A stretch of DNA of 64,000 bases, from assembly GCA_017394865.1 (NCBI GenBank), contig JAFPWT010000013.1, positions 26,705 to 90,704 on the forward strand. Direction: 5' to 3'. Each line of letters starts with the position of its first letter. Positions within the stretch are counted from its first letter, which is position 1. A model generated the notes under the pieces. It ran no database searches and was not told the DNA's origin. It was given only the letters and a program-made list of their open reading frames with translations. The stretch comes from Bacteroidales bacterium. Lineage in GTDB: Bacteria > Bacteroidota > Bacteroidia > Bacteroidales > F082. The translations under genes and the position numbers were made by a program. Shown in pieces: positions 10,239-45,273 of the stretch.

Positions 10239-11918
10239 ATGGGACATTTGATTGAAATAGACAGTCTGACCTTCTCCGCCATGCTCCGACAAGGGACTGT
10301 GGCCTTAGGAAAGGAGAAGGGTGTAATCAACGATTTGAATGTTTTTCCTATCCCCGACGGGGATACAGGTGACAATATGTATATGACCATGAAGGCCGGA
10401 GTGAGCGCAGCTAGCGAGGCCAACCCCATGGGCACTGCATATCTCCCGGTGGGAGATACGCTAGGTGCCCATGGGGTTGCCTCGCTAGCATCCGCAGCGT
10501 CATCTGGCATGCTACTGGGTGCCCGTGGCAACTCGGGAGTTATCTTGAGCCGTATCTTCGCAGGCCTTGCTAAAGGGTTGAAAGACGTGGCTGTGGCCGA
10601 CACCAAAACGTTTGACCATGCCATGCACGCTGCCGTCGACGAAGCCTACAAAGCCGTTCCTGTCCCAGTGGAAGGCACCATGATCACGGTGATGCGCGAA
10701 GGCGTAGCTGGGGCCGACGCTTCTGGTGACATGAACCACTATTTTGAGACCTTGCTTGAAGCCATGCAGACCTCGCTTGACCATACTCCAGAGCTTCTTC
10801 AGGTGCTGAAGGATGCCGGTGTGGTCGACAGCGGCGGGGCAGGGGTGCTCTGTGTTTTCCGTGGGATGAACGACGCCCTCTGTGGTCGTATTACCGATGA
10901 AGAACTGTTGCCATCCAAGGTAGAAACACCTACTGTGGACCTCAATAAATTTAACGAGAACAGTACGCTTGAATTTGGCTATTGCACAGAGTTCCTGCTA
11001 CGGCTGTTGCGCGCTAAGGTGGACTTGGAAACCTTCGACGAACAGGTGATCATCGATTACCTGAATCGCGTTGGTGAGTCGGTGGTGGCCTTCCGTGAAG
11101 GCACTATCGTGAAAGTGCACGTGCATACCTATACACCTGGAGTCATCCTGAATGAAATGCAGAAATACGGCGAGTTCCTGACCATCAAAATTGAAAACAT
11201 GGCGCTTCAACATCATCAGGAAACTAACCAAAACAATGCTTCATTCAAAAAGCCCAAGCAGAAATATGGAGTTGTTACCGTTGCTTCGGGACAAGGCCTG
11301 ATGGATGCTTTCCGTGAGATTGGTGCCGACGAGGTGATTGCCGGCGGACAAACCATGAATCCCTCTACACAGGATTTTATAGAAGCCTTCAGACGCATTA
11401 ATGCACAGCATATTCTAGTATTCCCTAATAACTCCAACATTAAGATGGCTGCCGAGCAGGCCGCTGGACTCTATACTGAGTCCGATGTGCGTGTGATGCC
11501 CTCTGCTTCGATAGGCGAAGGCTATTTTGGCATTGGCTCCATTGATCGCGATTGCGCTAATGTGGAAGAGGTGATCGAGAGTGTCACCGAGGCCATGCAA
11601 ACGACAGTTTCGGGTATGGTCTCCACCGCCATCCGTGATGCGGAAGGGGAGGTGAGTGTGCATACGGGCGACTTTGTGGGCTACAGTGGCAAGCAGATCC
11701 TCAGCGACAGCCCCTTGCGCAAGGAGGCAGCCATGGAACTCTTACGGAGACTGAACATCGGATCACGTGACGTGATGATCGTCTTTTATGGCAACGATGT
11801 ACCTGCCGAAGAAGCGGATGCTTTAATTACCGAATTGCAGAATAATTATAAAAACATTGAAATAATAAATATTTGCGGCTTACAGCCGGTTTATGACTAT
11901 ATTTTTGCCTTATGTTAG
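10239..11918 (+). CDS. fakA: Fatty acid kinase catalytic subunit FakA (DAK2/YloV family)
   Basis: Phosphorylates fatty acids held by a FakB carrier, giving acyl-phosphate for phospholipid synthesis. The 559 residues comprise an N-terminal DhaL-like ATP domain with the metal/ATP loop NVFPIPDGDTGDNM (about 36-49) and GARGNSGVILSRIFAG, then the central and C-terminal FakA domains. The gene overlaps the fakB/degV gene by 7 nt. Between the DGDTG and GARGNS motifs the protein is unusually long: residues about 58-84 are encoded by an 80-bp inverted repeat of the same family as intergenic hairpins elsewhere in the window. This segment falls between conserved motifs, so the enzyme may still work. Confidence 0.88.
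   Translation: MGHLIEIDSLTFSAMLRQGTVALGKEKGVINDLNVFPIPDGDTGDNMYMTMKAGVSAASEANPMGTAYLPVGDTLGAHGVASLASAASSGMLLGARGNSGVILSRIFAGLAKGLKDVAVADTKTFDHAMHAAVDEAYKAVPVPVEGTMITVMREGVAGADASGDMNHYFETLLEAMQTSLDHTPELLQVLKDAGVVDSGGAGVLCVFRGMNDALCGRITDEELLPSKVETPTVDLNKFNENSTLEFGYCTEFLLRLLRAKVDLETFDEQVIIDYLNRVGESVVAFREGTIVKVHVHTYTPGVILNEMQKYGEFLTIKIENMALQHHQETNQNNASFKKPKQKYGVVTVASGQGLMDAFREIGADEVIAGGQTMNPSTQDFIEAFRRINAQHILVFPNNSNIKMAAEQAAGLYTESDVRVMPSASIGEGYFGIGSIDRDCANVEEVIESVTEAMQTTVSGMVSTAIRDAEGEVSVHTGDFVGYSGKQILSDSPLRKEAAMELLRRLNIGSRDVMIVFYGNDVPAEEADALITELQNNYKNIEIINICGLQPVYDYIFALC
10410..10489 (+). repeat. Palindromic element copy A, in frame inside fakA
   Basis: The left arm (10410-10435) and right arm (10465-10489) are reverse complements apart from one bulged C. 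Between them lies the core TGCATATCTCC (10436-10446), a tiny loop, then GGAGATACGCTAG (10452-10464). The core is identical to that of copy B at 12791, whereas the arms differ. The element is read through as coding sequence (about 27 residues, including NPMGTAYLPVGDT). Confidence 0.85.
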
Positions 11919-12781
11919 TATTTTTCAGTGACACCGATTGCGACATCACTCCCAAGGAGTGTGCCGAGTATGGCATCAAAATGATTAGCATGCCGTACAC
12001 CGTGGGTGATAAAGTGATTTACCCTTACATTGATTTTCAGGAATTCGACTCGCACAGCTTCTATGACATGCTGCGTGCTGGCACCATGCCCACCACCAGC
12101 GCCATGAGTGAGGAAGCCTACATCCAATACTTTGAGCCCGAGTTTCAGGCTGGTAACGATATTCTCTATGTGCATTTTTCCTCAGGGACCTCGAATACTT
12201 TCGCCATTATGAGTCAGGCCGTGGCCAAGCTGAAGGAGAAGTATCCCGAGAGGATGTTCTATGAAGTTGATACCTTGGGCATCACAGCGCTTTCCTATAA
12301 TGTGGTGCTCGAATGCGCCGAGATGTATAAAGCTGGTAAGACCGCTGAAGAGATCGTGGAATGGGCCAAGGTGGAAGTGCCGAAGTTCCCAATGTATTTC
12401 TTCGCTGACGACTTGAGGTTCTTCCGCCGCAGCGGTCGTGTGAGCGGATTGGCGGCCACGATGGGCGGCCTCATCGGCATCCGTCCCATTATCTACTTGA
12501 ACGACGAGGGTAAGATGGTCTCCATCGGCAAGGAGAAAGGCCGTAGCAAGGCTATCGCCCGACTGGTGCAGTATGTGGAGGAACTCGGCGAGGACGTGAA
12601 AGCCCACCGTGTGGTGATCGGTCATAGCGATTGTCCAGAGATCGCTGCCGAAGCCGAAACCTTGTTGAAAGAGAAATTCGGCGCTGATCTCAATGTGATT
12701 ACAGTGGTGGTGAATCCTACGATCGGTAGCCACTGCGGTCCCAACGGCGTCGGTATCTGCTTCCACGCCAAACATAGGTAG
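11912..12781 (+). CDS. fakB: DegV-family fatty-acid-binding protein FakB
   Basis: Binds one fatty acid and presents it to FakA for phosphorylation. The 289 residues show the DegV fold signatures: an N-terminal SDTDCDITPKECAEYGI, the pocket loop HFSSGTSNTF near residues 89-98, the FRRSGRVSGLAATMGGLIGI block near 171-190, and a C-terminal PTIGSHCGPNGVGICF. The start overlaps the end of fakA by 7 nt, so the two subunits are coupled. The strict FakA-FakB order makes this functional call stronger than DegV homology alone. Confidence 0.9.
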   Translation: MLVFFSDTDCDITPKECAEYGIKMISMPYTVGDKVIYPYIDFQEFDSHSFYDMLRAGTMPTTSAMSEEAYIQYFEPEFQAGNDILYVHFSSGTSNTFAIMSQAVAKLKEKYPERMFYEVDTLGITALSYNVVLECAEMYKAGKTAEEIVEWAKVEVPKFPMYFFADDLRFFRRSGRVSGLAATMGGLIGIRPIIYLNDEGKMVSIGKEKGRSKAIARLVQYVEELGEDVKAHRVVIGHSDCPEIAAEAETLLKEKFGADLNVITVVVNPTIGSHCGPNGVGICFHAKHR

Positions 12782-12790
12782 AACGGGATC

Positions 12791-12865
12791 GAGCCAGTGT
12801 ACCCCCTGAGGCGCTGCATATCTCCTTCGGAGATACGCTAGGCGCCTCAGGGGGTACACTGGCTC
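12791..12865 (+). repeat. Palindromic element copy B, between fakB and the acyltransferase gene
   Basis: Perfect 24-nt inverted arms at 12791-12814 and 12842-12865 enclose the core TGCATATCTCC..GGAGATACGCTAG. There is no T-tract after the right arm, so it is not an ordinary terminator. The ATG of the next gene lies 19 nt beyond it. Confidence 0.9.
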
Positions 12866-44400: not shown

Positions 44401-45172
44401 TCCTTATTCGGATGAAAACCTGACTAAAGCGCACCGGATTAATCAACTCGATAAGGCAGATTTCATGACTTTGAATGTGGACGCTCTGCAATCCGGTTTA
44501 GGTACGGCGACTTGTGGGCCTGACACAGATGAAAAGTATCTTTTGAATAAGAAATACTATGAATATGTGGTCTGCTTGCGGCCTTATCCCGTTGGAAAAC
44601 AGAATCCTGCAGAATTGTATCACTATGCGGTCCCTTCGTTTGAAAAAATCTTTGAAGCGACGCCATACACCTATCCAGAATATGAAAAACATATCATCAA
44701 GAACACCACTTTTGTGAATGAGCCTGCTCCGAACTATTCACAGAACAAGGAGACTGCTTTGATGGATGGCAAGAAAGGTATTGTCGGTGGCTATTACTGG
44801 GATAACTGGTTGGGATTCAACGGTGTGGACATGGAAGCTACCATCGAACTAACCGATCCTATTGACATCAACATGGTGAAGATAGGTGTGGCCCACAAGC
44901 CTGAGAGCTGGGTACCGTGGCCTAAGGGCGCCTGGGTGTCTTTCTCCAAGGACGGCAAGAAATACACTGAATGGAAACGTGCTGAATTTCCAGCTTTCGA
45001 TAAACCGGATCCGATGAAGTCGCTAGGCCGCGTCGAGGCTCGGGCCAAGGTCAACGAAAAAAATGTCAAGTTCTTGAAGGTCAAGATTGAAAACCAAGGC
45101 GTCCTCCCGAAATGGCATCCTAATGCAGGCGAAAAAGCTTGGATTATGGTGGATGAGATTGTGCTAGAATAA
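41456..45172 (+). CDS. lacZ: Exported GH2 beta-galactosidase (LacZ type)
   Basis: Hydrolyses terminal beta-galactosides, probably in the periplasm. The 1238 residues begin with a signal peptide (1-19, ending LNAQ), then the jelly-roll sugar-binding domain (about 50-225), an Ig-like domain, the TIM barrel with acid/base Glu483 (SMGNECGNG) and nucleophile Glu549 ([16 protein letters not shown]), a second Ig-like domain and the small-chain domain (about 770-1070). An extra C-terminal domain (about 1085-1238, '[20 protein letters not shown]' onward) looks like an F5/8-type carbohydrate-binding module. The gene is visibly A+T-richer than its neighbours and is bracketed by hairpin elements C and D, so acquisition by transfer is possible. 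Confidence 0.93.
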
Positions 45173-45180
45173 ATTATTTA

Positions 45181-45273
45181 AGCGAGCCTATCGCTAGAGT
45201 AGCCCCTGTGACACTACGTAACTCCCTTTGGTCGTTACTGAGGTGCCCCAGGGGCTACTTTGCTTGGCTCGCT
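45181..45273 (+). repeat. Palindromic element copy D, after the beta-galactosidase gene
   Basis: Outer arms AGCGAGCC / GGCTCGCT and inner arms GTAGCCCCTG / CAGGGGCTAC enclose CACTACGTAACTCCC..CGTTACTGAGGTG. The pairing extends further out: CTAGAATAAA at 45164-45173, which holds the last two codons and stop of lacZ, is repeated inverted as TTTATTCTAG at 45273-45282. Confidence 0.88.

Follow-up and report, generated by a model that had tools for sequence, protein, structure and literature searches.

The window described here, a stretch of 64,000 nucleotides from a Bacteroidales bacterium (GenBank assembly GCA_017394865.1, contig JAFPWT010000013.1, positions 26,705 to 90,704 of the forward strand), contains four copies of a hairpin element. 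Each has a fixed core flanked by arms that vary between copies and pair within each copy. On balance it is probable that these hairpins are dispersed palindromes of the same general kind as the REP and RPE repeats, that they reside at gene ends, and that their arms are kept by template switching together with selection on one strand. Copies would be inserted mainly at the junctions of convergent genes, and occasionally in frame in a gene. During replication, template switching from one arm to the other would then keep the arms complementary and flip the core; the flips themselves are observed. The observed strand bias would reflect selection for pairing on the strand complementary to the one on which the core is read (the "core strand"). 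A hairpin lying between convergent genes may, to judge from its placement, terminate or protect the transcripts that arrive from both sides. The four copies are the following.

10410..10489, minus strand (complement strand, presumed to be the foldable one; the core reads on the plus strand): copy 1, type A core at 10435-10465, in frame in fakA
12790..12866, minus strand (presumed foldable): copy 2, type A core at 12814-12842, with perfect arms of 25 bp, located in the tandem gap that follows degV
41326..41404, minus strand (presumed foldable): copy 3, type B core at 41350-41380, between the end of a thioesterase gene and a beta-galactosidase gene, in tandem
45190..45267, minus strand (presumed foldable): copy 4, type B core at 45214-45243, between convergent beta-galactosidase and arginine-deiminase-family genes

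The hairpins were confirmed by direct reading at the places given in a preliminary description of this DNA. The core lies on the plus strand in all four, where it reads CTGCATATCTCC...GGAGATACGCTAGG in copies 1 and 2 and CTACGTAACTCC...GTTACTGAGG in copies 3 and 4. Upon comparison with 200 dinucleotide shuffles, the folds of copies 1 to 4 were found to have z-scores of -10.2, -12.6, -6.4 and -7.8, well beyond those of the shuffled sequences. Ten inverted-repeat pairs are listed for the window, and the copies correspond to I4, I1, I3 and I5 of these, the AT-rich palindrome I2 being the sole intruder in the ranking. The outer helix of copy 4 extends further when positions 45175-45280 are folded. 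The arm substitution cited in the preliminary description is also present, with GTAG/CTAC in copy 4 corresponding to GCAA/TTGC at the equivalent place in copy 3.

The family is far larger than the four copies first counted. Two covariance models were used, R1 built from 11 copies and R2 from 36, and searches of the window's own genome and its relatives gave many further copies, so that the family is a dispersed one. With R1 there are 15 distinct places in the genome that the window comes from, a draft of 2.08 Mb with an estimated completeness of 73%. Of 99 genomes from the genus, 11 are matched by R2, among them that of the window, with E-values down to 6e-23. The 72 loci taken from carrier genomes contain 157 matches over both strands, corresponding to 88 distinct copies on the better strand; L157:275 and L158:1437 among them are weak (27-28 bits) and L174 is partial. 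Seven genomes have 27, 15, 12, 11, 10, 6 and 3 copies, and four have one each. Most copies are 68-80 bp long, the single partial match measuring 54 bp. Thirteen genomes, G013 counted, have a PepD protein at least 93% identical to that of G013, and nine of these carry the family. G112, with a best PepD match of 82%, has a single copy; G000 lacks a close PepD match.

A diverged sister family having the same plan occurs in four of 28 genomes of another Bacteroidales family, at 4, 2, 11 and 1 places, the last of which is weak. An exact-pattern scan of named genomes returned 30 stretches, 25 from Bacteroidales or Bacteroidia and five from unrelated bacteria; R1 matches 24 of the former and none of the latter. 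Titles among the Bacteroidales and Bacteroidia stretches include yak reticulum and red deer, and RUG in genome titles presumably denotes rumen genomes. The family is carried by some Bacteroidales of the gut, including several of ruminant origin. An order-wide scan with R2 found the family in two of 393 genomes, the window's own included, and a phylum-wide scan with R3 in one of 395, which is the window's own; because 12 candidates per genome were scored, absence across the order and phylum is weakly tested by these scans. G081, a genome outside the genus that was matched by the first model, has no match with R2. A search of viral_contigs with one core pattern, for a virus as carrier, gave no matches. 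In Rfam the sole match above threshold for the whole window is a tRNA, and all seven matches for the four loci fall under the gathering score, so that none of the hairpins corresponds to a known RNA family there.

Three of the loci (L168, L176 and L178, from G036, G137 and G112) hold a short-core variant, AAGAAAC-AA-GTTTC, that lacks the middle loop. In L122, L119 and L108, from Tb.RUG.487, runs of two or three copies, uniformly oriented, fall within about 100-400 bp. At contig ends of G000 (L001, L005, L006 and L007) copies lie just past 5S rRNA genes, and in L005 and L001 a block of two copies in opposite orientations appears inverted relative to the 5S gene.

There is hardly any doubt that the hairpins are real. 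Chance palindromes or an assembly artifact might be suspected, as the genomes are drafts, many of them assembled from metagenomes, and some copies are located close to the ends of contigs, next to rRNA operons. However, different assemblies share sites while differing in sequence, the E-values are as low as stated above, and shuffled sequences never fold as well, which refutes this explanation for practical purposes.

The arms covary, as had been claimed. In 36 aligned copies, 88.9% of 936 cells are paired, compared with 33-46% when one side is slid; changes on both sides are found in 18 of 26 pairs, with no shuffle out of 500 attaining these figures. Because the structure comes from the same 36 sequences, the slid control flatters the result somewhat, and relatedness is not corrected for. 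The preliminary description took compensatory change to imply that the structure is kept. The covariation stands, but the implication does not follow from it alone, because an identical pattern results when the template is switched from arm to arm (PMC8604942 and PMC8794818), and core inversions, the other product of this process, are present.

A difference between the strands bears on this point. Symmetric scores were used to align each copy with its reverse complement, so as to favor neither strand. The arms of the 88 copies comprise 1713 Watson-Crick columns. The mismatches, read on the core strand, are 48 A·C and 8 G·T, which on the complement correspond to 48 G·T and 8 A·C. The excess persists in 59 non-redundant copies (30 A·C to 5 G·T on the core strand). 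Among 39 sites, A·C is in excess at 20, G·T at one, and the two are equal at 18 (sign test, 2e-5). The complement also folds better, being the more stable strand in 80 of the 88 copies when folded as RNA, with the core strand preferred in seven, and in 74 of 88 according to DNA folding energies. Its usual fold is a long stem with an asymmetric internal loop. The complement is likewise the better-folding strand in 17 of the 18 sister-family loci, L197 being the opposite case, and in 16 of 16 in a reduced set. From the mismatch bias it seems that the complement of the core strand is the one kept foldable, and not the core strand, on which the preliminary description had read the element.

The UNCG-like loops of the core strand (CTTCGG, CTGCGG, CTACGG) were considered as proof of an RNA function and rejected, since the complementary bases give GNA-type loops. 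The loop of the complement strand starts with GNA in 74 of 88 minimum-energy folds. Loops of the UNCG and GNA types are both known to be stable, so that loop identity is no guide to whether RNA or DNA is folded. Orientation relative to the replicated strand was likewise rejected as an explanation: core-strand orientation agrees with replication-type skew in 24 of 41 cases (p 0.35), showing no bias, and with gene-strand bias in 19 of 41.

How the arms stay paired can be followed at 18 sites that are common to two to six species (both neighbors or the host gene having more than 40% identity). Genome G137, for instance, has a copy at the same junction as window copy 4. We infer that shared copies persist across species; because the arms are unrelated at some shared sites (for example L152, L139 and L038), a junction may also have received an insertion more than once. 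The core orientation agrees in 32 of 49 ortholog pairs and is reversed in the other 17. Core flips occur at five of the 18 shared sites, and nine of the 17 flipped pairs come from a rhamnosidase-like gene alone. In that gene three genomes have each core orientation, the element is in frame both ways, and the left arm encodes similar residues. Pairs judged to be in register gave ratios of paired to single in-place changes of 2:0 (with one other double change), 4:1, 2:1, 1:1 and 1:2, and further such pairs gave 0:3, 0:1 (with one other double change), 0:8, 0:3, 0:4 and 0:5. Twelve comparisons that were out of register or doubtful were excluded: L165/L041, L046/L037, L043/L036, three with L177, and six between flipped and unflipped copies of the rhamnosidase gene. 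According to PMC8604942, arm homogenization and spacer inversion are the two products of template switching, and PMC8794818 argues that template switching is able to create and maintain hairpins. Template switching is probably at work here.

Whether it is sufficient is a different matter. The hairpins might be neutral palindromes whose arms are homogenized and cores inverted by template switching, with no selection on structure. The core inversions, the multi-base paired changes of the kind that template switching gives (PMC8604942 and PMC8794818) and the decay of some shared copies agree with such purely mutational upkeep. Nevertheless, it appears rather unlikely, since the strand bias of 48 to 8 mismatches, found at 20 sites against one, has no link to replication-type skew, and the core is recognizable across sites despite different arms. 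We know of no strand preference in template switching as described. As the bias calls for more than template switching, selection on the folded complement strand is the simplest addition. A mutational bias that the hairpin itself brings about is also conceivable.

The placement of the copies was determined with a simple codon-usage gene caller. Sixty-four copies have two called neighbors, which are convergent in 50 cases, tandem in 14 and divergent in none; 12 more are short of a called neighbor and 12 lie inside genes, six per orientation. Counted by gap, 42 of the 55 element-holding gaps are convergent, 13 lie between genes of the same direction, and none is divergent. The background gene pairs in 41 regions around the copies, element gaps included, comprise 101 convergent, 359 same-direction and 108 divergent pairs. 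Seven of the 18 sister-family loci have called genes nearby on both sides, and all seven are convergent.

One reading of this placement is a cis-acting RNA gene end, that is, a two-way terminator or a 3'-protecting hairpin without a T-run, selected as RNA. The hairpins are not intrinsic terminators, in which a GC-rich hairpin is followed by a T-run. A run of at least five T within 12 nt of the hairpin is found in none of the 88 copies on the core-strand side and in four on the other, and the hairpins of the window are not followed by a T-run, consistent with the earlier statement that they are no simple terminators. Compensatory change is known in Bacillus cereus terminators (PMC5381666).

The 3' side of pepD, where close relatives hold palindromes of very different sequence, offers a comparison. 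A hairpin with a T-run within 170 nt of the pepD stop was detected in seven of 14 close relatives and seven of 15 more distant ones (30 loci, one without a call). In most of the close relatives in which the scan was positive, this hairpin sits in the end of the facing gene, as read by eye. The scan was negative in all three close genomes that have the hairpin family after pepD (G013, G036 and G100), which hints that the element might stand in for a terminator there. However, three cases at one junction prove nothing, because four of the 11 close genomes without the family after pepD are also scan-negative (one of these, G010, shows a longer-loop hairpin by eye). In addition, the in-gene copies are divided equally between the orientations and tandem copies occur in both, so that the foldable strand shows no fixed relation to the transcript. 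Selection as an RNA gene end is thus possible, but we consider it somewhat unlikely as the whole explanation.

Unrelated palindromes were observed in the gaps between fakA and degV and between degV and the next gene (L080-L096), and in the pepD 3' gap (L238-L251), examples being the GGTTAGAGG, GAATGCGG and AGAAGACGGAAG repeats. Since unrelated families occupy the same junctions in relatives, the clade seems to turn over its gene-end palindromes fast.

The host and neighboring genes in the window are the following.

10239..11918, plus strand: fakA-like gene, with Dak2 and FakA-like middle and C-terminal domains, holding copy 1 in frame
11912..12781, plus strand: degV-family gene, upstream of copy 2
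40913..41329, plus strand: 4HBT thioesterase gene, the 3' part of which overlaps the start of copy 3
41456..45172, plus strand: GH2 beta-galactosidase gene, upstream of copy 4
45305..46555, minus strand: arginine-deiminase-family gene, convergent neighbor of copy 4

The position of copy 1 inside the fakA reading frame is a point absent from the preliminary description. The fakA segment that holds it is 192 nt long in the window genome and 147 nt long in 22 of 27 other genomes that were read, the remaining five having 144, 156, 174, 177 and 246 nt. The gap between degV and the next gene is 103 nt in the window and 5-6 nt in three of the 16 genomes readable there. The shorter fakA segment and the nearly empty degV gap show that copies arrive as insertions, at sites that are empty or shorter in relatives. 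The 12 in-frame copies inside genes belong to five gene families: an alpha-L-rhamnosidase-like gene (GH106) in six genomes, a U32 peptidase gene in two, a gene for a lamin-tail-domain protein in two, tilS in one and fakA in one.

In fakA of G105, G054 and G034 (L050, L070 and L072), the sequence at the spot of copy 1 resembles, by eye, a widespread repeat, CGTCATTGCGAGG...GAAGCAATCC, and there is extra sequence at this spot in L071 (fakA of G056) as well. This tolerant spot may be a hot spot for in-frame palindromes. The peptide GRDAARHVST is encoded in frame in two unrelated proteins (L169 and L024) and may stem from another repeat family.

Copying of the arms from flanking host DNA was rejected as their main origin on account of the arm consensus common to many copies. 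The empty degV gaps of 5-6 nt and the changes in place of arms at shared sites likewise disfavor target-derived arms, although such an origin is conceivable for single unusual copies, the net gain in fakA being smaller than the hairpin.

The insertions also raise the question of a mobile element, in which a candidate enzyme would recognize the complement strand as a single-stranded DNA hairpin, as in REPs, the ends of IS200/IS605 or attC, and move it. This would accommodate a strand bias that has no link to host gene or replication direction, the preference of DNA folding for the complement, and the presence of up to 27 copies per genome, with groups of two or three in one orientation. However, no enzyme was found. 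The REP-type Y1 transposase that the preliminary description proposed to look for has no association with the family across 60 genomes of the genus, Y1_Tnp being present in four of seven carriers and 38 of 53 non-carriers. There is also no copy within about 2 kb of eight of the nine Y1 genes of carriers G008, G013, G023 and G037, the ninth (in G008) being outside this check. Low mobility is also indicated by the sites that species have in common. Movement by such an enzyme is therefore a doubtful explanation.

Several observations weigh against the combination of gene-end insertion, template switching and one-strand selection that is favored here. A structure-fitted alignment gives 94 A·C to 54 G·T mismatches, or 57 to 54 if one core pair is left out, so that the arm bias depends on the neutral arm-to-arm alignment; the symmetric alignment is trusted more, because the structure-fitted one can shift columns to form G·U pairs. 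When the arms are folded without the core, the complement is favored in only 54 copies against 33. The sister-family arms have 3 versus 2 mismatches and thus no bias (16 loci, L186 and L197 being left out at 32.2 and 29.3 bits). Decay exceeds compensation in the U32 gene pair, with paired to single changes of 0:8, and in three rpe-pepD pairs, with 0:3-5, while pairs in the rhamnosidase gene gave 0:3 and 1:2. The net gain in fakA is 45 nt for an 80-nt hairpin; the insertion was not a clean addition, and native sequence must have been lost or overlap an arm. Orientation relative to the host genes is mixed, the transcript-ending role is a possibility suggested by placement for hairpins that have no T-run, and avoidance of promoters and operons could account for part of the convergent excess.

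A more specific proposal, which is speculative and must be regarded as unlikely, is that the hairpin is recognized by a putative factor as a folded single strand, and on one strand only, that it is kept at convergent junctions in at least two Bacteroidales families, and that a flip of the core is tolerated without loss of function. If true, this gene-end element would act without regard to the gene that it faces. As individual sites can be traced through several species, the family offers a natural test of selection against template switching as the source of compensatory change. The strand difference in mismatches is a simple readout for this question that could be used for other palindromic repeats.

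No description of the family was found in the open literature, subscription papers being mostly outside that scope. REPs are 20-40 bp long and have an unpaired GTAG or CGTC tag, and CGTC-type REPs, present in Bacteroidetes among others, are reported without a dedicated transposase (PMC3733652). Like the GTAG/CGTC REPs described there, the hairpins are dispersed palindromes that are mostly intergenic, mainly in convergent or same-direction gaps, with some copies in genes (12 of 88 inside called genes). Unlike REPs, they are 68-80 bp long apart from the one partial match, and have long variable arms and a fixed core with an internal loop. There is no constant GTAG or CGTC at the ends of the 88 copies, as judged by eye, CTTAGCG and CGCACGC being frequent ends.

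Rickettsia palindromic elements, RPE, are palindromic units of 105-146 bp that occur within conserved protein genes, where they are in frame, and also between genes (PMC2229807). The hairpins share both locations, with their 12 in-frame copies in five gene families. They differ from RPE, by description, in that most copies are at convergent gene ends and that one gene position is in frame in both orientations. Subclass 2.6 of the TnpA-REP (RAYT) systems of Bacteroidetes has "atypical secondary structures" (PMC6006769) and resembles the present family in its dispersed hairpins in genomes of this phylum. Unlike those of RAYT systems, the hairpin copies are not near the Y1 genes examined, and their presence does not track these genes.

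A further likeness is to the structure of an integron recombination site. In integron attC sites the conserved boxes are at the outer ends, the structure is kept while the sequence varies, and one strand matters. The hairpins appear to share the kept structure and the relevance of one strand, but are fixed in the middle and variable in the outer arms. Since the size, the tag and the RAYT link of REPs all fail, the hairpins are not REPs but a new family of the broad kind of dispersed bacterial palindromic repeats, set apart from RPE by description. They add to these repeats an apparently undescribed family with in-frame coding copies, as in Rickettsia.

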